Below the pieces are notes generated by a model that searched no databases, was not told the origin of the DNA, and saw nothing but the letters and a program-made list of their open reading frames with translations. 33,725 bases of DNA from a virus: positions 1 through 33,725 of IMG/VR virus record IMGVR_UViG_3300035113_000009. One strand, given 5' to 3'. A program made the position numbers and the translations under genes. Below are positions 338-32,375 of the stretch, piece by piece. Position 1 is the first letter of the stretch. The number at the start of each line of letters is the position of its first letter.

Positions 338-1606
338 TCATTTAAACTCCCACCCGCGCCTAGTTTTACCGTTTTCCTTCCAAACCTTGCGCGTCCATCC
401 GTTAAATTCCAGGATTGCTGCAATGCGGCGTTGTTCTGGCTGTCCATTCCGTGACAGCTCAAAATTTAGGCAATCGAGCATGATTTTCGGTATGGTTATC
501 TCTCGTTTCCCGATCAGGAAGTCAAGGATTGCATCCTCCCAAGGATCACCCTCGCGGCGGTTATCCGTTTCACGTTGCTGCTCATCTATTGGGATATCCC
601 ACCATTTTGCCCCGGATGCGAATAATTGAACGGCTTCGGCAAAGAGCAATTCCCGGTTTATTTGGAGCCATTCCAGATTGATTTCGCCACATAGGGCTGG
701 AAGGAATCGGCGAGCGCCAGTAGGATCGTTTTGCCAATTATTGCGGTTCGTGGTACAGACTAGGACGGTTTGGCGGGGATGATCCTCAGTATTGCGCCCA
801 TATGCACGCCGGTAGCGATCCACTTGGCAGCTGATAATGCCCTTGACGCGCTCAATCTCGGACTTATTGAAACTGTGCATTTCGCTGATTTCGACCATCA
901 TGTGGCCGTCAAGGACGCCAAAAAAGTCTTTTGTCAGCACCGACTCATGGCATTCCACGAACCACTTGCCGCCGAGAATGGCGAGCGCCGAAGATTTTCC
1001 GGCCCCTTGATGGCCCTCTAGTACCGGCACGGTATCAACTTTGCAGCCTGGGCGCATCACCCGGGCAACAATGGATAATATCCAGCACCGGCCTAGCGCC
1101 GCCGTATAAGCGTTATGAGCAGTGCCGAAGCCTTCTGACATTAGGTAGTCAAGCCGTGGCGTTTCGTCGCCCTTGAGCGATTCCAGCCATTCCCGGCACT
1201 CGTTCTTGATGTTTCGGAAAGCGGCGACTAGGGCTGCATCGTGGCAAGTGGTCGCGGATATCTTTTTTAGTCCGACGTGACGCTGGATGTACAGCTGGAG
1301 CAGGATGTCGTCGCTATCCCGCCACTTGCGCTGCGGCCCCTGCCAGTTCGTGACAATGGCGTCGAGAAACTCGTCGTACCAGATTCTGCCTTCCAACTCG
1401 GGATCGTTTTCTATGCTGCGTATTGCGTTGTCGAGGTTATTGTCCGTGGCTTTGCCGGATTTGCTGAGAATGCCAAGCCAGTCAGGACGGCGGATTGGCG
1501 CAAGTTCTTGCGTTGCATACGCTTCCAGCGGTGGGAAGCTGTCATCAGGTGGGCTATTCACGAACGGCTCAATCTGACGGCAAGTAATCGGCCAAAGCTT
1601 CCTCAA
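338..1606 (-). CDS. VapE / D5-like superfamily 3 helicase (phage replication)
   Basis: This is a putative replicative helicase of the virulence-associated E (VapE)/D5 type, expected to form an ATP-driven hexamer. Walker A is EGHQGAGKSS (about residues 197-206), followed by a Walker B-like MMVEISEM (236-243), a sensor-1-like VLVCTTNRNNW and an arginine-rich GARRFLP. At about 420 aa it holds the helicase domain and a short N-terminal region but no recognisable primase domain, unlike longer primase-helicase fusions. The start is uncertain. A TTG at 1606 overlaps the upstream gene by 38 bases and has no clear ribosome site, while a GTG at 1561, seven bases after the upstream stop, would give a protein 15 residues shorter. 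It probably works with the iteron array just downstream. An orphan DnaB N-terminal domain is encoded separately at 3951-4478. Confidence 0.85.
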   Translation of the reverse strand: MRKLWPITCRQIEPFVNSPPDDSFPPLEAYATQELAPIRRPDWLGILSKSGKATDNNLDNAIRSIENDPELEGRIWYDEFLDAIVTNWQGPQRKWRDSDDILLQLYIQRHVGLKKISATTCHDAALVAAFRNIKNECREWLESLKGDETPRLDYLMSEGFGTAHNAYTAALGRCWILSIVARVMRPGCKVDTVPVLEGHQGAGKSSALAILGGKWFVECHESVLTKDFFGVLDGHMMVEISEMHSFNKSEIERVKGIISCQVDRYRRAYGRNTEDHPRQTVLVCTTNRNNWQNDPTGARRFLPALCGEINLEWLQINRELLFAEAVQLFASGAKWWDIPIDEQQRETDNRREGDPWEDAILDFLIGKREITIPKIMLDCLNFELSRNGQPEQRRIAAILEFNGWTRKVWKENGKTRRGWEFK

Positions 1607-5517: not shown

Positions 5518-6382
5518 GTTCGCCCCCTGCGCGGATTGCGGCGACTACCTTCACTGCGCCTTCCAGTCGCGCCCAGTCCATATTGCCGTCCATATTCGCG
5601 CAGTTGTTGTCGATATTCGACTGGTAGCCTTCCGCCAAGTGCAAGCGCACGGCATCCGCTGCGTCAATCAGGCGTTCCCGTTCCCCCGCCAGCGCCGCGT
5701 CGAGGTGCGCGCGGGGAGAGGGGGTGGCGAGGGCTCCCACAAACTTTGCATAGCAGCGAGCAACTTTTGCCGATCCTTTATCGGTTAGGTTTATGAATTC
5801 TTTCATTTCCGCATCCTTCGCCGCAATCTCGGCCTCGCGCGCGGCGAGTTGGTCACGCAGTATCTCGCGCTCTTTGTTGGCGATTTCGACAATCGTGTTA
5901 CGTTCCTCACGCAGCGCGGTGAGGTCGCGTTCGTAATCCTCCAGCAATACGACCGGCATGCTTGGCGACGATAGAACGGATGAATGCTCCAGTTTCATTA
6001 GCAGTACGCCATTTTCGTAATGACACAGTTCGCCAGTCCAGAACCACGCCCTAGTGGTCGGCGGTGGCGAACTCTTTGGTTGCGGGTTGAAGTTGGCGAC
6101 TGACGGGGTATTGAGCGGGAAAACCGTTGGCAACCTCGGAGTCGGCATCGCACCATCGGCGGCTACCGGCTGCGCGGCTTGCTGGATCAGCGTGGCGAAG
6201 CGGCATAGTTGATCTATCGACATGGTGCGATGCCTGTCGTCCCTGTTTAGAAACTTCGATGGCGCAATCGCTTGATCTGCCAGTTCCAACACCTTCTCAT
6301 CGCTAATCGTCATGGCTGGTCCTATTGGTTGAGTGCAGCGGCAAGTCGGGCAGTTATTATGCTTAGTAGCGATATAGGTCAT
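5510..6382 (-). CDS. Coiled-coil phage protein of unknown function, about 290 aa
   Basis: The central part is a long heptad-rich coiled coil (residues about 150-210, with ALREERNTIVEIANKE and LAAREAEIAAKDAEM). It is preceded by a proline-rich linker and followed by an Ala/Arg-rich helical tail. I chose the ATG at 6382 because it forms an ATGA overlap with the HTH gene. A start at 6313 (MTISDEKVLELAD), with AGGA upstream, is equally credible and would remove a short Cys-containing leader (NNCPTCRC). No enzyme motif is visible. Confidence 0.65.
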   Translation of the reverse strand: MTYIATKHNNCPTCRCTQPIGPAMTISDEKVLELADQAIAPSKFLNRDDRHRTMSIDQLCRFATLIQQAAQPVAADGAMPTPRLPTVFPLNTPSVANFNPQPKSSPPPTTRAWFWTGELCHYENGVLLMKLEHSSVLSSPSMPVVLLEDYERDLTALREERNTIVEIANKEREILRDQLAAREAEIAAKDAEMKEFINLTDKGSAKVARCYAKFVGALATPSPRAHLDAALAGERERLIDAADAVRLHLAEGYQSNIDNNCANMDGNMDWARLEGAVKVVAAIRAGGERE

Positions 6383-6570
6383 GAGAATACCCATGCGATG
6401 ATTTCAAGGGACGCTTTGTAATCTGGCATACCTCGGCCAGAAAGAAAGCGCGATAAGGTACTTTCGCTAATGCCGATTTCCTTGGCAGCAACTTTATGAT
6501 TTATGCGATTGGCGGCAAGATAAAGGCGCACCATCTCAGCAAAGCGGTCAGGCTCGTCGCGCTTGCTCAT
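6379..6570 (-). CDS. XRE-family HTH DNA-binding protein, 63 aa
   Basis: A single lambda-repressor-type HTH fills the protein: NHKVAAKEIGISESTLSRFL carries helices 2 and 3, followed by SGRGMPDYKASLEI. It is likely a small regulator acting on phage promoters. Its ATG overlaps the stop of the upstream zinc-ribbon gene as ATGA, with AAGGGGG just upstream. It is the second HTH gene in this operon, after the Cro-like first gene. Confidence 0.75.
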   Translation of the reverse strand: MSKRDEPDRFAEMVRLYLAANRINHKVAAKEIGISESTLSRFLSGRGMPDYKASLEIIAWVFS

Positions 6571-10834: not shown

Positions 10835-11232
10835 CCGCCCGCCGCAGCGTGACGCCGATCCAATCACCCGCGCAAGGTCGCCGCGATCTGGCAGCGTGCA
10901 TGGCGCTGGTCGAGTCGCTGGCTGTCGTGGGGCCACTGTGGATTCTGCCACCGCTACCGGACTGGCGCACGGCCCACGCAGCACAGGTCAAGACGCCGCG
11001 CCCATCGCGCCAGAAGCATCGGCATATCACGATCAATGGCCGCACGCAGACGCTTACCGAGTGGGCGACGGAGACAGGGCAGAACTATCGCAAGATCGCA
11101 CAGCGCATCGACTCGCTCGGATGGTCGGACGAGGAAGCAGTTACCGGCAAGCGCAAGCATCGGCGCAAGTGGCTAGGGCGGAAAGCGACGCCAGAGCGCA
11201 GCATTGGCAAGACGTGGGAGGCGCATGACTGA
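10831..11232 (+). CDS. Phage protein with a small HTH-like TINGxTxTLxEWAxETG domain, 133 aa
   Basis: The C-terminal half (ITINGRTQTLTEWATETGQN, then IAQRIDSLGWSDEEAV) is a helical module often found in phage DNA-binding or HNH-associated proteins. The N-terminal half has a short hydrophobic stretch (ALVESLAVVGPLWILPPLP). It starts in an ATGA overlap and ends eight bases inside the DNA methyltransferase gene. It is probably DNA-associated. Confidence 0.65.
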   Translation: MTARRSVTPIQSPAQGRRDLAACMALVESLAVVGPLWILPPLPDWRTAHAAQVKTPRPSRQKHRHITINGRTQTLTEWATETGQNYRKIAQRIDSLGWSDEEAVTGKRKHRRKWLGRKATPERSIGKTWEAHD

Positions 11233-11929
11233 GCCGACGATCATCGGCAACGCCACGCTGTACTGCGCTTCGTGCGAGGACATCCTGCCGACGCTGCCGA
11301 AAGTCGATGCCGTGATTACCGATCCGCCGTATGGGATTGGCGAGGCTGCAGGAAAGAATGCGAGCCGTGGCAAGCTGGCAATCTCTAAAGACTATGGCAC
11401 CGATGATTGGGATAACAACCCGCTGGACATGCCATTGATCCAATTAGTTATTGATGCTGCAGCCAGCGTTATTATCTTTGGCGGAAACTATTATCCGATG
11501 CCTGCAGCGTCATGCTGGCTCGTATGGGACAAGGAAAACGGCGCAAGTGATTTTGCCGACGCTGAACTCGCATGGACAAACATGCCAAAAGCGGTTCGCC
11601 TAATCCGCTATCGCTGGAATGGGATGCTCAGAGCCAACAATGAGGCAAGAGGCGACCATCCAACACAAAAGCCGATAGGGGTCATGCGCTGGTGCATCGA
11701 CCAAGCTGGCAATCCGCAGACGATCCTCGATCCCTTCATGGGCAGTGGTACTACAGGAGTCGCCGCAATGCAGATGGGCCGCAAGTTCATAGGCATCGAA
11801 CGCGAGCGCAAATACTTCGACATCGCGGCAGAACGCATTGAAAACGCACAGCGCCAGACCACGCTATTCACCCGCGAGGAAGCGTACGAGCAGACGCAGC
11901 GGCCACTACTAGGGTACGACGTGCCATGA
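11225..11929 (+). CDS. DNA methyltransferase, DPPY type (N6-adenine/N4-cytosine, beta order)
   Basis: The 234-aa protein has the catalytic DPPY at residues 33-36, HPTQKP at 145-150 and the SAM-binding DPFMGSGTTG at 169-178, followed by GRKFIGIERE. The catalytic motif precedes the SAM motif, which is the beta-class order. It should transfer methyl groups from SAM to adenine N6 or cytosine N4 in a specific DNA sequence. No cognate restriction enzyme is beside it, so anti-restriction self-protection or gene regulation is likely. The ATG at 11225 has GGGAGG close upstream and overlaps the previous gene by eight bases. Confidence 0.9.
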   Translation: MTEPTIIGNATLYCASCEDILPTLPKVDAVITDPPYGIGEAAGKNASRGKLAISKDYGTDDWDNNPLDMPLIQLVIDAAASVIIFGGNYYPMPAASCWLVWDKENGASDFADAELAWTNMPKAVRLIRYRWNGMLRANNEARGDHPTQKPIGVMRWCIDQAGNPQTILDPFMGSGTTGVAAMQMGRKFIGIERERKYFDIAAERIENAQRQTTLFTREEAYEQTQRPLLGYDVP

Positions 11930-13208: not shown

Positions 13209-13399
13209 ATTTTTCGCCTTACAGGTTCTTTCTCCGCGTGAATATCGCCATCCTGCGCTGGTTTATCTGGATGGCAGATTATCAGCAGGATTCGTTGCGC
13301 CGCATGGACTGGCCGCGATCCCCGATGATAGACGACCGGAAAGCGCAACTGGACGGCGAGCTGATCCAATGCGAAATGCGGCTGCGGTATCTGTCATGA
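13205..13399 (+). CDS. Small protein with N-terminal hydrophobic helix, 64 aa
   Basis: The GTG start is coupled by GTGA overlap, and AGGA lies eight bases upstream. The N-terminal FFLRVNIAILRWFIWMA could be membrane-associated; the rest is a charged helix (DRKAQLDGELIQCEMRLRYL). It is coupled by ATGA to the acyltransferase gene. The role is unknown. Confidence 0.6.
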   Translation: MNFSPYRFFLRVNIAILRWFIWMADYQQDSLRRMDWPRSPMIDDRKAQLDGELIQCEMRLRYLS

Positions 13400-14223
13400 C
13401 CCTATCCATATTCCACACCCGCGAATTCTTCGACCTGCATCAAGGCACGCATTACCTGCAATCTGGCAACACGGTCATGCCGGTATGGTTGCAGGATGGC
13501 CTCGCTTATTCCCCGTTGCGCGGTACATTCGGCGGATTTGGCGGCGAAGTGTCGTTGGCCGCGTATGAGGATATTGCGAATCAACTGATGCTGATAGGCG
13601 CGAAGGAATACCGGATCAAGCTCGCCCCATCGTCGCACGATCAGGAAGCGTTCGCGCTGGCGTTTAATGTGCTGAGTCGCGCCGGATTCCAAGTTATCGG
13701 GCAGGAGTTGAATTACGACCAGCCGATTAATCTGATACTGCCATTGGCAGAAGGAAACAGAAAGCGGCTTGCCAAGTTAAAACGCGAGGCATTCACTGCT
13801 TACTATATGCCAATAGAAGAAGTCTATCCTGTGATTGCAGAAAACCGGCAACGCAAGGGAAAACCTATGTCGATGCCACTTGATGCGCTTATGGAAATGG
13901 AACGAATATTTCCCGGACGCTTGCATGGTTTTGGAATTACTTCGATAGGCGGTTCGCTTGTTGCTGGGGCAATTTGTATTGATCTGAATCACCAGACTCG
14001 CTATATTTTCATGTGGGGCGATGGACCAAACATGGAAGTATTTTCGCCGGTAGTATTGTTGGCTAACTTCATCCATTGGCATTCTCTTTCTTCGCTGTTT
14101 AGCTTGCTCGACGCCGGAACATCTACCGAAAACGGTATCCCGAACTATGGGCTGATTCAGTTCAAGAGAAGTCTCGGCTTCCGCGAGTCGCTGAAACTCA
14201 CGATGGGGTTGCGCCGTGAATAG
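13396..14223 (+). CDS. FemAB/GNAT-like acyltransferase
   Basis: The 275-aa protein resembles the FemAB/CelD-type GNAT proteins, which transfer acyl or aminoacyl groups. Visible elements are an N-terminal RGTFGGFGGE segment, a central KRLAKLKREAF with GSLVAGAICIDL, and the C-terminal IPNYGLIQFKRSLGF typical of the second GNAT lobe. The ATG at 13396 overlaps the previous stop (ATGA). In a block with a ketoisomerase and an aminotransferase it could acylate an amino sugar, though it does not resemble the hexapeptide-repeat acetyltransferases usual in Fuc3NAc pathways. That role is inferred. Confidence 0.7.
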   Translation: MTLSIFHTREFFDLHQGTHYLQSGNTVMPVWLQDGLAYSPLRGTFGGFGGEVSLAAYEDIANQLMLIGAKEYRIKLAPSSHDQEAFALAFNVLSRAGFQVIGQELNYDQPINLILPLAEGNRKRLAKLKREAFTAYYMPIEEVYPVIAENRQRKGKPMSMPLDALMEMERIFPGRLHGFGITSIGGSLVAGAICIDLNHQTRYIFMWGDGPNMEVFSPVVLLANFIHWHSLSSLFSLLDAGTSTENGIPNYGLIQFKRSLGFRESLKLTMGLRRE

Positions 14224-14467
14224 ACGTGGGTTCCTTTCTAGCTGCATCGCGCTATGTGTAGCGCCAGCAATCGTTCGCGCCGATTCGTTAATGCGAATAA
14301 TTCCGATTGAGACTGAAATAATCCTGCCGCCAACCGGATCGCTTTTGACGATAGACATGATTACCAGAGAGGCATTAAAAGTTTTAGAAACAAACATGCT
14401 TTTTAACAAATCAATCAGCAGGTATTACGAAGATGCTCACACCCAATTTTCTATCCGCAGATATTGA
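14216..14467 (+). CDS. Tat-signal protein with a coat-protein N-arm-like C-terminus, 83 aa
   Basis: The protein starts (GTG) with MNRRGFLSS, a twin-arginine motif followed by a hydrophobic stretch (CIALCVAPAIV) and RADS, a plausible signal peptidase site after residue 22. Its last part, LLTIDMITREALKVLETNML ... ISRYYEDAHTQFSIRRY, aligns with the first ~50 residues of the coat protein encoded at 31098-32375 (LLTISMITNESLMVLENELT ... LRTYDESFG ... LNVRRP). It overlaps the acyltransferase gene by eight bases and the next gene by 35. The function is unknown; the family seems to occur in other phages, by recollection. Confidence 0.65.
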   Translation: MNRRGFLSSCIALCVAPAIVRADSLMRIIPIETEIILPPTGSLLTIDMITREALKVLETNMLFNKSISRYYEDAHTQFSIRRY

Positions 14468-15272
14468 CGGCTTCCGTTTTGACAACGGCATGTGCTTGTT
14501 GGAGTTCGACACCATCAGTCGAACCGACACTCCCGACCTATCGACCTATACCGGCGCATACAAGGGCTGCGGGCGCTTTACGTCGTTGGTCGAGTCCTAT
14601 ATCCGCGAGCGATTCGACATCGTGGAGATTCCTACGCCGCAGATGCTGTTGCCCGGGGTCGTCGCCCGTGATGCCTGTATCACCAATTACTTCGATGCTG
14701 CCGATCCAAGCAAGCTGCGCTACTTAGTCGCAGAAACGATGGCGCGCAAGATACTCGGCATTCCCTACAAGACGATTGCCGATGGTTACTACCGTGCCGG
14801 ATGGTGCCCGCCGCCGCATATCAAAAAAGGACTGCGGCCCGTCACGTTCCACTACCCGAAAGCCGGATACTTCGGCATCATGGCCGAAACGCTAGGCGTC
14901 ACACCGAGCGCGAAACGCGACGATCTGGACACCGTAGAACTTTCGCTGGCCTTCGTGACGGGCATTCCCGATATCGTCGCCAGCGTGCTATTCGTGGTCA
15001 CTGCATCGCCAATTTACCGAGTGACTAACCAAGATACCTGCATCGGCATGGATGGCAATTGCCGCATGGTGGTCGAGTATCGCGGGGCGTGCGATGTTGC
15101 TGCCGAACTTGATCGGCTAGGGATATGCTCATACCCGACCGTGCGCGGAACGAAAACGATACGCTACCCGTTGCCGACTGTGGCGAATCTTCGGAAAGCG
15201 CCGGACCTGTATGCCAATACCTTTAACGCGCAAATACTGAAAGGAATCATCAATGCAAAAACTGTCACCTGA
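14433..15272 (+). CDS. Unknown protein, 279 aa, in sugar-modification block
   Basis: The protein starts MLTPNFLSADIDGFRFDNGM and includes AETMARKILGIPYKTIADGY and GWCPPPHIKKGLRPVTFHYP. No family is recognised, and no Rossmann, GNAT or PLP signature is visible. A hydrophobic stretch at IPDIVASVLFVVTAS might be a buried strand-helix or a membrane-associated segment. It overlaps both neighbours (35 and 20 bases), so it is expressed with the acyltransferase and methyltransferase. It may be a new enzyme of the block or an unrelated insertion. Confidence 0.65.
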   Translation: MLTPNFLSADIDGFRFDNGMCLLEFDTISRTDTPDLSTYTGAYKGCGRFTSLVESYIRERFDIVEIPTPQMLLPGVVARDACITNYFDAADPSKLRYLVAETMARKILGIPYKTIADGYYRAGWCPPPHIKKGLRPVTFHYPKAGYFGIMAETLGVTPSAKRDDLDTVELSLAFVTGIPDIVASVLFVVTASPIYRVTNQDTCIGMDGNCRMVVEYRGACDVAAELDRLGICSYPTVRGTKTIRYPLPTVANLRKAPDLYANTFNAQILKGIINAKTVT

Positions 15273-15936
15273 CGCCTATGCTGAACTGCAACTGCCCGAC
15301 CAGCATATCGAGGACATCATGCAGGAGTACGAGGCAAAATGGATACTGGAACAGACGCAGGGCTGCAATACCATTCTGGAACTCGGATGGGGAAGCGGAA
15401 TAATTGCCAAGGCGCTGCACAATGCTGGGAAATCTGTTCTAGTTCTTGATGGTTCTAGAGAAAGTTGCCATATCGCTTATCAACATCATGGCATTATGTC
15501 TATGCAAACCATGTTTGCAGATTTCACCACTTCACAGATATACGATTGCGTTATTGCATCATTCGTGCTTGAACATGTAGAAAATCCAGTTGATCTGCTT
15601 TTGCAATGCGGGAAATTGGCAAAAAAACTGATTGTCGTTGTCGGCAATGCCAACAGCTACCATCGGCAATTAGCGGTGCAGATGGGATTGCAACCGTGTC
15701 TAGATTCACTATCCGCACGCGATGAGCAAGTGGGCCATTACCGTGTTTATGATTTTGCTACGATAAAAAGCCAACTAAATGTCACAGGATGGACTCCTAT
15801 GCATTGGAAAGGTCTGCAATTCAAGCCTCTCCCAAATAGCATGATTACGAACTTCGATCCCAAGCTGATCCGCGCCATGTGCGAGATAGACGTGCCGTTC
15901 GAGTGCGCTGCGAATTTAATGATTGTCTGCAAATGA
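15253..15936 (+). CDS. Class I SAM-dependent methyltransferase
   Basis: The 227-aa protein has motif I ILELGWGSG (41-49), an acidic strand-2 end (VLVLDGS), IYDCVIASFVLEHVENP as motif IV/post-motif and a helical C-terminal cap. This is the fold of small-molecule O-, N- or C-methyltransferases such as UbiE- or TylF-like enzymes, not a DNA methyltransferase. AAGGA lies eight bases before the ATG. It is coupled by ATGA to the aminotransferase gene, so a sugar intermediate is the likely substrate, by context. Confidence 0.8.
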   Translation: MQKLSPDAYAELQLPDQHIEDIMQEYEAKWILEQTQGCNTILELGWGSGIIAKALHNAGKSVLVLDGSRESCHIAYQHHGIMSMQTMFADFTTSQIYDCVIASFVLEHVENPVDLLLQCGKLAKKLIVVVGNANSYHRQLAVQMGLQPCLDSLSARDEQVGHYRVYDFATIKSQLNVTGWTPMHWKGLQFKPLPNSMITNFDPKLIRAMCEIDVPFECAANLMIVCK

Positions 15937-16529
15937 ACGCATACAAGGTAGTCGAAGATTTCGAGGCCGCGCTTGCGGAATATACTGGCGCGCCGTTCGT
16001 TGTCACGACGAACAGTTGTTCAATGGCGCTGCTGGTTGCGTGTAGCTATGGGGCGCAATGGCATAAGGATGAACTTATCATTATCCCCTCTCGCACCTAT
16101 TGCGCAGTTCCACAGTCAATAATCCACGCTGGATTTCGCGTCGATTTCAGCGATACGGACTGGCGCGGAGAATATCGCCTTTATCCTTCGATAGTATGGG
16201 ATTCCGCCCGCCGCTTCACTTCCGGCATGTATCGGCCCGGCCAGATGCAGTGCGTGTCATTTCAGACCAGTAAAATCCTCGGCCTAGAGCAAGGCGGGGC
16301 GATCCTATTGGATGATCCAGAAGCGGACCAGTGGCTCAGGAGGGCGCGTTTTGATGGCCGATTGAACGCATCAGAGAAACTACCAAAGCAGATCGGCTGG
16401 CATTGCTATCTCTCGCCAACAGTCGCCGCACTCGGCTTGCAGCACCTCGCATGCCTGCCGCGCCATAACGAGGATCAAGCCGGATCGAAGGATTTCGCGG
16501 ACTTGTCAAAACTCGATATATGGACCTGA
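15933..16529 (+). CDS. DegT/DnrJ/EryC1-type PLP aminotransferase, half-length
   Basis: The protein follows the large domain of sugar aminotransferases: TTNSCSMALLVACSYG near the N-terminus, DELIIIPSRTYCAVPQSII, VWDSARRF (Asp90, where PLP-binding Asp is expected), and SFQTSKILGLEQGGAI with the putative Schiff-base Lys114. It ends at 198 aa after a QHLACLPRHNED helix, whereas family members are usually about 360-400 aa, so the C-terminal domain is missing. No continuation is seen in other frames. Normally these enzymes aminate keto-sugar nucleotides. Whether this short form is active is unknown. Confidence 0.75.
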   Translation: MNAYKVVEDFEAALAEYTGAPFVVTTNSCSMALLVACSYGAQWHKDELIIIPSRTYCAVPQSIIHAGFRVDFSDTDWRGEYRLYPSIVWDSARRFTSGMYRPGQMQCVSFQTSKILGLEQGGAILLDDPEADQWLRRARFDGRLNASEKLPKQIGWHCYLSPTVAALGLQHLACLPRHNEDQAGSKDFADLSKLDIWT

Positions 16530-16885
16530 TTCAGTTCCCGAAGATTCTCGACGCGCGCGGCAATCTGACCTTTGTCGAACGCCTGCCATTCGCCATTAAA
16601 CGCTGCTACTGGCTATATCACGTTCCCGATGGCTCACTGCGCGGGGGCCATGCACATCGCACGCTGGATCGCGTATTTATAGCCGTAGCGGGCAGATTCA
16701 AGCTCAACGGAATCGAACTCAGCAATCCGTGGGAAGGACTTCGCGTGCTGCCGATGACATGGGTCGAACTGACCGATTTCAGCAACGGAGCAGTGTGCCT
16801 GGTACTTGCGAGCGCGCAATACGACGAATCGGATTACATCAGGGATCGCGTGGAATTTAATCGCTTGACGCAGATATCCGCATAA
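16520..16885 (+). CDS. FdtA/QdtA-type dTDP-4-keto-6-deoxyglucose 3,4-ketoisomerase (WxcM-like cupin)
   Basis: The 121-aa cupin has the characteristic RGNLTFVE, PFAIKRCYWLYHVP and RGGHAHR (His44, His46) segments, the histidines of which act in catalysis in FdtA-type enzymes. These convert dTDP-4-keto-6-deoxyglucose to the 3-keto isomer that a DegT-type enzyme then aminates, the first steps to dTDP-3-amino-3,6-dideoxyhexoses. It overlaps the aminotransferase gene by ten bases, which fits pathway order. The dTDP-sugar precursor would have to come from the host, as no RmlA/RmlB gene is in the window. Ketoisomerase versus a related epimerase is not settled by sequence alone. Confidence 0.85.
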   Translation: MDLIQFPKILDARGNLTFVERLPFAIKRCYWLYHVPDGSLRGGHAHRTLDRVFIAVAGRFKLNGIELSNPWEGLRVLPMTWVELTDFSNGAVCLVLASAQYDESDYIRDRVEFNRLTQISA

Positions 16886-16960: not shown

Positions 16961-17350
16961 TTAGCGGTTGCCTTCCGCGTTCTTGACCTTCTCGTAGGTA
17001 CGCAATCCGCCGAGGCCGAGCATCCCCATCAGCACCGGCATCATTTCTGACACGTCAGCGGGCGATACATCGATCGGATGCCCGAACCACGTCAGCAGAA
17101 ACTTGGCGACCGGCAAGCCGATCCAGTTCCATCCGCAAGCCACGCCGCACGTCCAGCCGATAAACGGACGCCATCCAGCCACAAACACGCTAGGCGATGC
17201 GGCCTCGACCTTGTTGATGTCTAGCTGCCCCTGCACGACCATGACCGCTGCGGCAAGCTGCTGCTTTTCCTGCTCGCTCTTGTCGGGCCATATCTTGTTG
17301 ATAGCTGTTGTAACGAGATCAGCTATTTCACCCGCTCCGGTTAGGCTCAT
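16961..17350 (-). CDS. Holin-like 3TM protein
   Basis: The 129-aa protein has a helical soluble N-terminus (SEQEKQQLAAAVMVVQGQLD) and then the segments WRPFIGWTCGVACGWNWIG, LPVAKFLLTWF and MMPVLMGMLGLGGLRTYEK. This is the pattern of the 'holin of 3TMs' family seen in phages and gene transfer agents. It should insert in the inner membrane and aid lysis. It is the last gene of the leftward late region, ten bases after the endolysin gene. Confidence 0.8.
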   Translation of the reverse strand: MSLTGAGEIADLVTTAINKIWPDKSEQEKQQLAAAVMVVQGQLDINKVEAASPSVFVAGWRPFIGWTCGVACGWNWIGLPVAKFLLTWFGHPIDVSPADVSEMMPVLMGMLGLGGLRTYEKVKNAEGNR

Positions 17351-25929: not shown

Positions 25930-27387
25930 TCAATTGCTTCCCGGCGTGGCGTTCAAGTTCGCAGACACGACGACACGATAGACCGGATCAGTGACGGTAA
26001 CTTCAAAGATACGATCACGAGCAGCGCCTAGCCTGCGCCATATCGCCCGATGCTTGTACTGTCCTGTTTTGCCGATAGTAGCGGTATGCTGCGTGCCGAA
26101 TGTCGAACCGCCATCGTCCGACCAAGTAAGAACAGCTTTGGGATCGCTTCCCTGTCCGGTTTGCAAGCCCACTCCGGGCTGAAACTGTATCTGCAAGTCG
26201 TGAAAGAATTGCCGCTTTAGATCGGTTGTCAGATGCTGGCAGCGACGGATACAGGGAATCAATGACCCGTCCATATCGGTGAAAGTCGATTGCGACAGCA
26301 TGTAAAGATTGCCATTCTGCCAATCGCCGACAATCACATCGCCGTTGAAATTCATCGAGCAGTTTCCACGGTGCCGGTGCAGGATGTTATTTGCGTCACG
26401 ATAGGCGCGTTTATGCCAGTATCCAGTCGCGAGGTCATAGACCCATGTAATGTCCTCGGTTGGGAAATTCAGCACATAAAATTCATGCCCTGACTGCGTA
26501 TAGGTGTAGGCAACTGCATCATTCGTGACGGCATAATTCTGGATCGCATATTCCACGGCGAACGTCGATATCCGAACTGGGGTATAACCCTTCATCTGCA
26601 CCACGGTTGCGTTCCCTCGCGTGTCATTGGCAAGGAACGCGAACGATTCGCCGAGGCGCGAAACCGAGAACGGGGCAAGCGTTCCGTGCTGCATTGATGT
26701 GCCGGGAATGCGCTGGAATGGAAACGGAAACGTGCCGACATCCGTCCAGACTTCGGTGAAACACTCTTTAATCAGGAATATCTCCCGATTGCTTACTATC
26801 AGGCTTATTAGATTCCCGGTAGAGCCATCGGCAGAGGAAAAGTTAAGCGCGCTGGATGTAACCGACAACGCATCGGTGCAGCCCCATTGGTTTGTACCGG
26901 GATTGTTGTAGATCAGAAAATTGTCGATGATGTCCGTGCGTGTGCCATTGGCAAATGCGCCATCATTGATCGCGGCGAAAGTATTCGTTCCCCATGTGTA
27001 GTAATAACGACTAGCGCCATCGCACAGATATGCGCTCACGCCATTGTCGGCAATCGACACAGGCCCGGAAGTCGTCAGCAGCGTACCGACTGCGGTTTCA
27101 TTGAAATTCGCGTCGATGTAGTACAGGACATTGGAACTAACTACCAGACAGGTAACACTGCCCGGAAGCGTATAAGTGGCACGGACAGGGCCACCAGCAG
27201 CCGTTTCCAGCTTTAGCAGTAATCCGGGCGCAGGATAAAGTGCAATAACGCCGCGCAAATCCTGCGTGGTTGGATTATCATCAGTCTTGGTCGGGTCAGT
27301 CTCTGGATACCAGTTAATCGACTCCTGATCGTTCTGTGTGAGCGATGCGGCTATGTATGATCCGCCGACGAATCCAAAATCACTCAC
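25930..27387 (-). CDS. P22 gp10-like packaged DNA stabilisation / head-completion protein
   Basis: The 485-aa protein matches the gp10 family: GFVGGSYIAASLTQNDQESI and NWYPE at the N-terminus, PGTSMQHGT and LAND in the middle, DLATGYWHKR, and the C-terminal RIFEVTVTDPVYRVVVSANL. In P22 it plugs the head-tail connector after packaging, assembling on gp4. I chose the GTG at 27387 because it forms a GTGA overlap with the upstream gene and has GAGG upstream; the frame remains open further 5'. Confidence 0.88.
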   Translation of the reverse strand: MSDFGFVGGSYIAASLTQNDQESINWYPETDPTKTDDNPTTQDLRGVIALYPAPGLLLKLETAAGGPVRATYTLPGSVTCLVVSSNVLYYIDANFNETAVGTLLTTSGPVSIADNGVSAYLCDGASRYYYTWGTNTFAAINDGAFANGTRTDIIDNFLIYNNPGTNQWGCTDALSVTSSALNFSSADGSTGNLISLIVSNREIFLIKECFTEVWTDVGTFPFPFQRIPGTSMQHGTLAPFSVSRLGESFAFLANDTRGNATVVQMKGYTPVRISTFAVEYAIQNYAVTNDAVAYTYTQSGHEFYVLNFPTEDITWVYDLATGYWHKRAYRDANNILHRHRGNCSMNFNGDVIVGDWQNGNLYMLSQSTFTDMDGSLIPCIRRCQHLTTDLKRQFFHDLQIQFQPGVGLQTGQGSDPKAVLTWSDDGGSTFGTQHTATIGKTGQYKHRAIWRRLGAARDRIFEVTVTDPVYRVVVSANLNATPGSN

Positions 27388-27566
27388 TTCGCCATCCTCG
27401 CAACGATTGCAGCGCCATTTACCTTGAACCACTTCGCGAATTCGCTCTTCTGCTGCGGATGGTCTTTCAGCAATTCATTCGCAATCGCAAGCGCGGAATC
27501 TTCCGTGAGGTCGTCAGCAGCTTTCCATGCCGCGACAATTTCAGCTTGTTTATCAGCGGCATTCAT
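27384..27566 (-). CDS. Small helical protein between gp4- and gp10-like genes, 60 aa
   Basis: The ATG at 27566 overlaps the stop of the gp4-like gene (ATGA). The product is helical and charged ([20 protein letters not shown] ... [16 protein letters not shown]). No family is recognised. Being coupled on both sides to connector genes, it may be a small connector or assembly protein. Confidence 0.6.
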
Positions 27567-29262: not shown

Positions 29263-30702
29263 TTATGCTGCGATTGATTCAGTTTTACGGGCCGGATCGT
29301 CACTGCCTCCGGGCTGCTTCTTCAAGAATGCGTCATAGTTGCCGTACCAGCCCTGCACGCCGAAGTGCCCCATATTCACCCGCGGCTCGACCCAGATGTC
29401 GCCGCCAATGGCCTGCCAGCGGATACCGAAGCTGATGTCCTCGCCGTAGCGAACGTGGTCAAGCGTGATGTGCCCGAAGAAGTTGTAGAGCTTGCGCCCG
29501 TTATCCCAGTACCAGTCATGCGGATTGGCCTTCTTGAGCTTCTCGAACACGGTACGGCTGATCTTCATGAATCCGGTCGGCACCTTCTGCGCCTTGATCA
29601 GGCCATCTTCATTCACAACCGCATGGTTGTTTTCGTCGTTGTGGATCGTGACGCCGTAGTTTTCCCAATTGTTTTTGACCGGATACGCAGCCCCAACGAT
29701 TTCGACATCAGCTTTCAGCACATTCAGGAAGCCTTGGAAGTCCCAGGATTGATCAGAGTCGAGGAAAAACAGATGTGTGCAGTCGGATTTCAGGAACATA
29801 TCCGCCATCAGGTTACGATTGTGGTCGATGTACGACCCGCCCGATACATCCTGAAAATCGAATTCCAGCGTTGTGTGCCGTGCCAGCGCATAGACCGTCT
29901 GAAACATGGAGCGGATATATGGCGAGTAGCCCTTGTTTTCGTAGAAGGGCGTCGAAATCATGATCTTTTTCTTGCTGCGATCAATCGGGTAAAGCCGCTC
30001 GTTGATCAGGTCGAGTTCATCGCAATGACGTTCAAGATTGTCGCCAGTGATCGCGGACAAGTTCGCGTTGTCATCGCGCCTGCGAATACTTGCAAGCGGT
30101 TCTTGTATCACATGTAGGTCATGCGCCTTGACGATGCGCGCATACCACTCAAGATCGGCCAAAAGGTGCAAATCCTCGCTGAAATAGCCGAGTTCGGCAT
30201 GCAACTCACGACGGTACAGGCTGGTCGAGATATACAGCAAGTTGCCGTTTTTCAGCAGTTTCTGCCAATCTGCACGAATACGGTTTTGTACTTCTTTCGG
30301 CTGTCCAACCGGATCAGATACTGGCGCATCGGCCTCATCAATGAATCGGGGCAAGCCAAAAGCGATGCCGCAATCAGGATTCGCATCAAGATACGCCACT
30401 TGTTTGGCGAGCTTCTCAGGCTCCCATACATCATCGGCGGCAAGCAGGGCGATATAGTCGCCAGTCGCGCGCCGAACAAGATTGTTCGTAGTTTTGTTCT
30501 GGCCTTCGTTGGCCGTTTTCAGCACTACGGAAACACGAGGGCTTTCGTAGAATTTCAGCACCTGCGCGGAGTTATCCGTTGATCCGTCGTCCTCTATCAG
30601 CAACTCCCAATCCGTGAAGGTTTGGGCAAGCACGCTGTCAATCGTGCGCGCAATCAAATGGCCTAGCTGGTACGACGGTATGCAGACGCTTACTTTTGGC
30701 AT
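29263..30702 (-). CDS. Two-domain glycosyltransferase (GT2 plus second GT-A domain) in the head gene cluster
   Basis: The first ~210 residues are a family 2 glycosyltransferase: KVSVCIPSYQ, IDSVLAQTFTDWELLIEDDG, ALLAADD (metal-binding Asp90-Asp91) and LADLEWYARI. From about 245 a second GT-A-like domain begins (KIMISTPFYENKGYSPYIRS, DHNRNLMADMFL) with its own FFLDSDQSWD (Asp315, Asp317) and GAAYPVKNNW. The gene lies among coat and connector genes behind a terminator-like hairpin, with GGAG six bases before the ATG. It probably transfers sugars onto a phage structural protein, or else onto host surface glycans. It is a natural partner for the sugar block at 13396-16885. Confidence 0.85.
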   Translation of the reverse strand: MPKVSVCIPSYQLGHLIARTIDSVLAQTFTDWELLIEDDGSTDNSAQVLKFYESPRVSVVLKTANEGQNKTTNNLVRRATGDYIALLAADDVWEPEKLAKQVAYLDANPDCGIAFGLPRFIDEADAPVSDPVGQPKEVQNRIRADWQKLLKNGNLLYISTSLYRRELHAELGYFSEDLHLLADLEWYARIVKAHDLHVIQEPLASIRRRDDNANLSAITGDNLERHCDELDLINERLYPIDRSKKKIMISTPFYENKGYSPYIRSMFQTVYALARHTTLEFDFQDVSGGSYIDHNRNLMADMFLKSDCTHLFFLDSDQSWDFQGFLNVLKADVEIVGAAYPVKNNWENYGVTIHNDENNHAVVNEDGLIKAQKVPTGFMKISRTVFEKLKKANPHDWYWDNGRKLYNFFGHITLDHVRYGEDISFGIRWQAIGGDIWVEPRVNMGHFGVQGWYGNYDAFLKKQPGGSDDPARKTESIAA

Positions 30703-30800: not shown

Positions 30801-31085
30801 TTACGCGGCCCAGATTCCGATTGCCACCAGCGTTGCCTGAATTTCCGCAATCGCGGCAATGGCATTGTTGGCTTGCGTCGAGGTCGAGAAGCCCCAGATT
30901 GCGGACGTGGTAGATACGGCCACAGTCGTTGCAATCGTGGTATGCGATGCAGCAGTTGCCCGCTGCACCACAGGGGTCGTGCCGTAAAAACCTACGGTAT
31001 CAGCCGGATCGTCAGCCACCCAAAACGGGGAGCCGCCGCCGACAAATGTCGCGGTCGTGGTAGATGCTGCGCCTGGATTGCTCAT
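30801..31085 (-). CDS. Small capsid-associated protein, 94 aa
   Basis: The protein is Ala/Thr/Ser-rich, with DPADTVGFYGTTPVVQRATA and a C-terminal helix (NNAIAAIAEIQATLVAIGIW). This pattern is common for small proteins encoded right after phage coat genes. It probably decorates the head or forms fibres. It lies 12 bases after the coat gene and is followed by the hairpin at 30719-30777. Confidence 0.65.
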   Translation of the reverse strand: MSNPGAASTTTATFVGGGSPFWVADDPADTVGFYGTTPVVQRATAASHTTIATTVAVSTTSAIWGFSTSTQANNAIAAIAEIQATLVAIGIWAA

Positions 31086-31097
31086 GTCATTTCTCCT

Positions 31098-32375
31098 TTA
31101 AGCCGCGACTCGGCAGGCAAGTTCCTGATAGAGCGGAGCCCATCCGAATAGCACATCGAAACGCGCCGGTATCTGGTCGTTGTTGATGGTGTATTGTCGG
31201 ACAACGCGGATCGAGATTCCCGCTTCCTTGGATGCCGCTCGCCCTGCATACACGACACCAGCAGGCAATTCCAAATCCGCCATCGCGCAGGTAAATGCGT
31301 TTTTGTGGAAAAGGATGTTCTGCGGCGAAGTATTGCCGGTTGCCGATACCCCGATGCTATAGGGGGTCACGGTTGCGGTTGCCGAAGTGCTGGTAATGCT
31401 CACGTTTTGGAACTGGCCTGCGGTTATGATCGCCGGAGCAATCGTCAGCGTGCCGGTCGAGGAACCCGTACCGCTGAAATCCGACCGTACAACGAACGTG
31501 CGCGGCTGCGTGCCGTAAATCTGGCGATTCTGCGGATTCACCGGGAAAACGTTGGCAATACTGATGATGTCGCCCTTTTTCAGCGTTACCGTTGCACCGA
31601 ATGTCAGCGTTACGTTGCTGGTTTCAGCCCATCCGGTAGCAATGCCGATGGAGGTCGTATTGACGGTCAGCGTGGAAGCGGACGATGCAGCCCATGCCCC
31701 GGTAGTCTGGGTATTCACGTTCTGATCCATCTTCCAGTTCATGCCAGCCGAATCGCGGCCCATCAGACCCTTCATGTACTGCGATCCGATCTTGTCGCTC
31801 GGCATGAACAACCCTTTGAGGCTATCCACAATCGATGCGCCAGTAAAGGGCTCGATTACAACAGCGCGGGAACCGTCACGCGGCGCAGCCTCAGCATCGA
31901 GGTAGGCACCAGCAGTCAGATACGTCAGCAGGGCCGTAGGCGGTGTACCATAGGTGCCGACGATGTTCGCCGTGGAGTTTTTCGCCATTTGCAGACCGAT
32001 ATAATCGACGCGGTTTGCAACCGCAGCGACCGAGGGCTTAATGACGTTTTCGGAGAAAGCACCCAGAGACAGGCGCAAATCCTTGGTAGTGAAGGCGGTA
32101 TCGACGTGGAACTGGTCGCCGTACTTGGTGGTATCGCCGACAACGACTGGAATCGAGGTCTGGTTGTAATCCTCGATGCTCAGATTCGGGCCGGATGTAC
32201 CGATGAAACGCGGGGGGCGGCGAACATTCAACGTATCGCCGATTTTTGCACCATCGACGCCGAAAGACTCGTCGTAGGTACGAAGAACCTGACTGGTAAA
32301 GGTCAGTTCGTTTTCGAGCACCATAAGGGATTCATTGGTGATCATCGAAATCGTAAGCAGGGTATCTGTGCTCAT
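31098..32375 (-). CDS. Major coat protein, P22 gp5-like
   Basis: The 425-aa length matches P22 coat. The N-terminal arm (LLTISMITNESLMVLENELT, GDTLNVRRPPRF), the VVVGDTTKYGDQFHVDTAFT segment, a Thr/Ser-rich insertion region (about 240-340) in place of the P22 I-domain, and the C-terminal FHKNAFTCAMADLELPAGV and RFDVLFGWAPLYQELACRV identify it. It forms the icosahedral shell. GGAG lies five bases before the ATG, and a strong promoter is at 32485-32513, consistent with high late expression. The N-arm has a partial copy in the protein at 14216-14467. Confidence 0.92.
   Translation of the reverse strand: MSTDTLLTISMITNESLMVLENELTFTSQVLRTYDESFGVDGAKIGDTLNVRRPPRFIGTSGPNLSIEDYNQTSIPVVVGDTTKYGDQFHVDTAFTTKDLRLSLGAFSENVIKPSVAAVANRVDYIGLQMAKNSTANIVGTYGTPPTALLTYLTAGAYLDAEAAPRDGSRAVVIEPFTGASIVDSLKGLFMPSDKIGSQYMKGLMGRDSAGMNWKMDQNVNTQTTGAWAASSASTLTVNTTSIGIATGWAETSNVTLTFGATVTLKKGDIISIANVFPVNPQNRQIYGTQPRTFVVRSDFSGTGSSTGTLTIAPAIITAGQFQNVSITSTSATATVTPYSIGVSATGNTSPQNILFHKNAFTCAMADLELPAGVVYAGRAASKEAGISIRVVRQYTINNDQIPARFDVLFGWAPLYQELACRVAA

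Follow-up and report, generated by a model that had tools for sequence, protein, structure and literature searches.

We analyzed a linear virus record from a podovirus with a P22-type coat protein (IMG/VR record IMGVR_UViG_3300035113_000009; 33.7 kb, 33,725 nt, hereafter the window) and found a block of amino-sugar genes at the end of its rightward operon, convergent with the lysis genes. The only glycosyltransferase (GT) of the window was encoded in the late operon, two genes downstream of the coat gene. The block encodes a FemAB/GNAT-type N-acyltransferase, an orphan protein of 279 aa (U279), a class I S-adenosylmethionine (SAM) methyltransferase, a predicted half-size DegT-type aminotransferase (mini-DegT) and an FdtA/QdtA-type ketoisomerase (FdtA), with coordinates and profile scores given in Table 1. 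We suggest that the block makes a sugar which the coat-adjacent GT attaches to the virion, and our confidence in this whole scheme is just short of even. The gene families are known; the half-size aminotransferase and the pairing of the block with a coat-adjacent GT are new. It is more doubtful that phages have evolved a working half-size fold-type-I pyridoxal phosphate (PLP) sugar aminotransferase of approximately 195 aa, with no small domain, together with capsid decoration by a 3-amino sugar via the coat-adjacent two-domain GT.

In the proposed pathway, the host enzymes RmlA and RmlB would supply dTDP-4-keto-6-deoxyglucose (dTDP, deoxythymidine diphosphate), and the block would divert it. 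FdtA would move the C4 keto group to C3, mini-DegT would aminate C3, the FemAB/GNAT enzyme would acylate the resulting amine and the methyltransferase would add a methyl group, acylation and methylation being placed in a presumed order. The expected product would be a dTDP-3-acylamino-3,6-dideoxyhexose, with or without the methyl group, and the GT may transfer this sugar to a virion protein, either the coat protein or a small protein of 94 aa, to give a glycosylated virion. No match to the PF16363 4,6-dehydratase or the PF00483 sugar nucleotidyltransferase was found in the incomplete record, which suggests that the host supplies dTDP-4-keto-6-deoxyglucose or that these genes lie in the missing part. 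A preliminary description of this DNA, made from its letters and open reading frames (ORFs), had called the tailoring set complete; with these two families absent from the record, the encoded pathway is incomplete. The same description had listed five consecutive overlapping genes at 13396-16885. Their place, the + strand and the mostly overlapping arrangement were correct, but six ORFs are present when the short frame p83 is counted. Its ketoisomerase and class I methyltransferase were both recovered above the profile cut-offs.

The order of the block was found again in a second phage. In locus L061 of record G002 (25.9 kb), the acyltransferase, a U279-like protein, the methyltransferase and FdtA were arranged as in the window, with the same junction with the lysis genes. 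Between the two phages, identity was 56-57% for the methyltransferase and 46% for FdtA, and the L061 acyltransferase (5936-6421) was truncated to the conserved C-terminal half of 161 aa. The gene order that the preliminary description had proposed to seek in other phages was thus retained for these four genes, but without DegT. G002 also carried a full-length GT close downstream of its coat gene, so that the GT was encoded with virion structural genes in both phages. The two GT copies were 54% identical, compared with 38% for the coat proteins and 22-38% for most tail and head proteins. Because the GT lies beside the coat gene and is better conserved than the coat proteins, we favor virion glycosylation over conversion of the host surface.

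The GT appeared soluble, and its second domain (phrog_1574) was GT-A-like with a DSD motif. The small Ser/Thr-rich protein between the coat gene and the GT was 63% identical to the G002 protein at the same place and is, speculatively, a candidate acceptor of the sugar. Among 50,697 public phages, no record covered 80% of the GT, and the coat protein family was found in 39 of them. Relatives of the second GT domain were encoded immediately after the coat gene in the Manatee Spring P22-type podophages MW202691 (L121) and MW202573 (L122), and this position after P22-type coat genes may be a general slot for capsid glycosylation. One of these two podophages also had a methyltransferase downstream of the coat gene. 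The interval of the preliminary description held no glycosyltransferase; the probable user of the sugar lies outside it, in the late operon.

The translation start of mini-DegT is likely at 15936, because the ATG at this position overlaps the methyltransferase stop and the similarity to relatives begins there. The protein contained 197 aa, as against 357-442 aa in solved DegT relatives, and a profile-profile alignment revealed that an internal segment of approximately 36 residues and a C-terminal domain of approximately 90 residues were missing. For this reason, we describe mini-DegT as a half-size relative and not as a typical DegT member. The family given in the preliminary description was correct, but at this size the activity cannot be assumed. 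One scan revealed the same short form, a strongly conserved family, in 59 viral loci, nearly all of 192-222 aa, and a profile of the short family retrieved only ordinary full-length DegT proteins from 299 Pseudomonadota genomes; among the sequences covered here, the half-size form was confined to viruses. In an alignment of 44 short-form viral sequences, D89 and K113 were invariant and the core WDSAR...MYRPGQMQCxSF...K was invariant or nearly so. K113 corresponded to Lys186, the catalytic lysine in perosamine synthase (K186A entry 3dr4). The AF2 model built from this alignment showed a predicted local distance difference test score (pLDDT) of 91.6 and a predicted template modeling score (pTM) of 0.89. 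Upon superposition, the model matched solved sugar aminotransferases over 185-194 of its 197 residues, and the top VIA match was Campylobacter WlaRF/WlaRG with TDP-Qui3N (Z 19.4; 190-191 of 197 residues). Since perosamine synthases and other enzymes were within 1 Z of WlaRF/WlaRG, this ranking leaves the position of amination unfixed. According to this confident model, mini-DegT is predicted to be a trimmed sugar aminotransferase that keeps the PLP-binding lysine and the pyridine-N aspartate. A literature search covering few subscription journals found no paper on half-size DegT proteins or on phage FdtA.

The neighbors of the mini-DegT family varied; GTP cyclohydrolase I followed in most loci, and an epimerase often preceded at position -1. 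In neighbor clusters from other phage types (L003-L060), GTP cyclohydrolase I followed the half-size DegT in 50 loci, and a QueD-like PTPS sometimes followed it. A further locus (L002:5895-10723) contained mini-DegT, a HisF-like protein, a cytidylyltransferase, a methyltransferase and NeuB, and resembled a nonulosonic-acid type module of phages. Named phages with mini-DegT included Flavobacterium immuto phages and Synechococcus phage S-SCSM2R, where it was found among glycosyltransferases.

FdtA matched the PDB entries 2pa7 and 4zu7 with E values of about 1e-20. In its HAH motif, H44 and H46 matched the positions mutated in the FdtA variant structures 2pae and 2pak, and both were invariant across an alignment of eight sequences. 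According to work on FdtA and QdtA variants, the stereochemistry of the product is presumably set by a residue pair, Arg/His in FdtA and Tyr/Arg in QdtA. At these positions, R13 of the window protein was FdtA-like and V82 resembled neither enzyme; therefore, Fuc3N and Qui3N cannot be told apart from the sequence. FdtA adjoined DegT in three unrelated phage contexts. Besides the window, these were an unrelated 87 kb phage record (L062), where GNAT, FdtA and mini-DegT were followed by two glycosyltransferases, and the phage loci L064-L067, where FdtA overlapped a full-length DegT gene and a glycosyltransferase-like gene came next. FdtA matches in small faecal records named 'Bacteriophage sp.' were left unused, as these records were 4.6-9 kb long, unannotated and possibly bacterial.

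The methyltransferase, whose closest PDB match was 2p7h (E 1e-10), belongs to a glycan-locus subfamily with the motif NANSYHRQLAVxMG. Relatives were found in 11 bacterial loci, most of them surface-glycan or flagellin loci; a DegT relative was present within 8 kb in seven of the 11 and FdtA in two. Two of the bacterial relatives adjoined FdtA and a full-length FdtB-like DegT, and in a glycan locus of a gammaproteobacterial metagenome-assembled genome the methyltransferase relative was followed in a row by GNAT, FdtA and a full-length DegT. The occurrence of these relatives in glycan and flagellin loci supports a dTDP-3-amino-3,6-dideoxyhexose pathway that draws its precursors from the host. 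The acyltransferase ORF opens at 13369; translation most likely starts from the ATG at 13396, which shares bases with the stop codon of the ORF before it. No direct match was found in Pfam, PHROGs, NCBIfam or PDB sequences, but a bacterial homologue (L102; E 3.6e-18) is itself a PF13480 (Acetyltransf_6) protein with 32.6 bits against a cut-off of 22, and the FemAB/GNAT assignment of the preliminary description holds on this basis. The acyltransferase is thus related to PF13480 and is not a scored member, as only its homologue passed the profile cut-off. In a further locus (L103), an Acetyltransf_6 protein adjoined a Methyltransf_23 protein with a similar motif, NAxSxHRxLAVxMG.

Several observations weigh against virion glycosylation by a block-made sugar. 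No DegT was found anywhere in the 25.9 kb of G002 though the block was present there, and the two related genomes with both loci may represent one phylogenetic event and not two. The GT belongs to a different operon from the sugar block, and the GT slot does not depend on this sugar, because relatives of its second domain adjoin coat genes in phages without a detected FdtA. The residue at the presumed product-setting position of FdtA, V82, is typical of neither FdtA nor QdtA, and we know of no activity for any half-size DegT. Overall, the amino-sugar interpretation given in the preliminary description was well supported, with the reservations that the viral DegT is half-size, that the upstream steps must come from the host or from missing sequence and that the second phage has no DegT. 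The main competing explanation is that the same sugar is put on the host O-antigen or another surface glycan and blocks superinfection. It owes this rank to Xanthomonas phage PBR31 (coat protein 51% identical), in which the slot by the lysis genes is occupied by a putative deacetylase annotated for possible O-antigen modification. The block of the window is likewise next to the lysis genes, where the two transcription directions converge, and the relatives of its methyltransferase and acyltransferase come from bacterial surface-glycan loci. However, no GtrA-like flippase, Wzy or membrane GT was found in the block, the sole GT is soluble-looking and belongs to the structural operon, and no integrase was seen among the window genes scanned. 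We consider host-surface conversion unlikely.

It is also possible, but quite unlikely, that mini-DegT is not an aminotransferase and instead catalyzes another PLP reaction or acts as a binding or regulatory protein, in which case the FdtA product or a host aminotransferase would supply the amine. The loss of the whole C-terminal domain, the presence of FdtA without any DegT in G002 and the adjacency of most relatives to GTP cyclohydrolase I and not to FdtA are consistent with this explanation. Against it stand the invariant lysine, aspartate and surrounding motif, the confident sugar-aminotransferase fold of the model and the many relatives among sugar genes, with an epimerase at -1, NeuB and the cytidylyltransferase in L002, and glycosyltransferases in L062 and L069. 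The block might be a host fragment acquired by transfer and since fallen into disuse, as the chimeric p83 and the truncated L061 acyltransferase could indicate; all main block frames are open, and the methyltransferase, FdtA and GT are more similar between the two phages than most tail and head proteins, which makes decay very unlikely. Modification of phage DNA bases by the sugar is the most improbable explanation. Virus GTs take part in DNA hypermodification in other phages (Pyle et al. 2024, as cited within PMC12619734), but no thymidylate-synthase-type hydroxymethylase was found in the incomplete record.

Virion glycosylation with a block-made sugar can be compared with several known systems. 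The bacterial dTDP-Fuc3NAc and dTDP-Qui3NAc pathways (FdtA-FdtB-FdtC and QdtA-QdtB-QdtC; WlaRA-WlaRF/RG in Campylobacter) likewise combine a PF05523 3,4-ketoisomerase, a DegT protein and an N-acyltransferase. In contrast, the phage block contains a half-size aminotransferase, an extra methyltransferase and an orphan, and no RmlA/RmlB; its acyltransferase is of the FemAB/GNAT type, whereas FdtC and QdtC are left-handed beta-helix proteins. Mimivirus encodes a UDP-viosamine cluster (R141, L136, L142) with an aminotransferase, an N-acetyltransferase and glycosyltransferases for particle glycans, and methylated viosamine has been reported (PMC4691112). The window phage likewise encodes a predicted amino-sugar aminotransferase and an N-acyltransferase; the Mimivirus system differs in belonging to a eukaryotic giant virus, in its 4-amino UDP-linked sugar and in its own 4,6-dehydratase, and no FdtA is mentioned (PMC4691112). 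Mycobacteriophages carry glycans on capsid and tail-tube subunits (Freeman et al. 2023, as summarised in PMC12619734); that summary, as far as it goes, describes no phage amino-sugar synthesis block, and in the window phage the glycan is only predicted. Enterobacterial flagellin glycosylation islands combine FdtB/DegT aminotransferases, SAM methyltransferases, acyltransferases and glycosyltransferases (PMC4875605), but they are chromosomal and their target is flagellin. If the scheme is true, small phages themselves make a custom amino sugar for their particles, and virion glycosylation extends beyond borrowed host sugars. Mini-DegT would then set a new lower size limit for known sugar aminotransferases and provide a compact enzyme for study. 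The pairing of the block with the coat-adjacent GT gives a directly testable prediction on virion composition.

Table 1. Position, strand and supporting evidence of the genes discussed in the window.
Feature	Position	Strand	Evidence or remark
VapE-type primase/helicase	338-1606	-	
DNA methyltransferase	11204-11929		73% identical to L061 counterpart
FemAB/GNAT-type N-acyltransferase	13396-14223	+	homologue-based
p83	14216-14467	+	83 codons; between acyltransferase and U279
U279 orphan protein, 279 aa	14433-15272	+	relative L061:6414-7340
Class I SAM methyltransferase	15253-15936	+	PF13489 (Methyltransf_23) 39.6 bits (cut-off 27)
Half-size DegT-type PLP sugar aminotransferase (predicted)	15936-16529	+	197 aa; PF01041 77 bits in two stretches (cut-off 19.8)
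FdtA/QdtA-type dTDP-4-keto-6-deoxyglucose 3,4-ketoisomerase	16520-16885	+	PF05523 118.6 bits (cut-off 23)
Holin	16961-17350	-	
Head-closure protein	25930-27432	-	
Two-domain GT	29263-30702	-	GT2 PF00535 104 bits; phrog_1574 at 243-450
94-aa Ser/Thr-rich small protein	30801-31085	-	between coat gene and GT
P22-type major coat protein	31098-32375	-	PF11651 103 bits; phrog_283 208 bits

U279, which the preliminary description had left as an unknown, found no family match in profile searches, and its single relative was the one in L061. Other viral contigs gave no match, and phage and plasmid scans with the single protein and with the alignment were empty; a scan of 299 genomes was also without a match, but it had no positive control and is uninformative by itself. 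The AF2 model of U279 was uninformative (pLDDT 27.5). The overlap between U279 and the methyltransferase was 20 bases in both the window and L061. The short frame p83 combined a signal-like (twin-arginine-like) N-terminus with approximately 35 aa similar to the arm at the N-terminus of P22-type coat proteins. Its identity was 45.7% over 35 aa with the coat protein of the window itself (E 8.8e-7) and 51.5% over 33 aa with the coat proteins of MW202483 and OR003940. From this similarity, p83 is probably a recombination remnant, a chimeric scar inside the sugar block.

Scans of the window for promoters and terminators gave site counts no higher than in shuffles, and neither an Rfam match nor a tRNA was found in it. 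The record is probably incomplete, because no portal or terminase was seen in the window; in the related circular genomes MW202520 and MW202674, both genes were located upstream of the coat gene. The most conserved gene common to the window phage and L061 was that of the DNA methyltransferase listed in Table 1.

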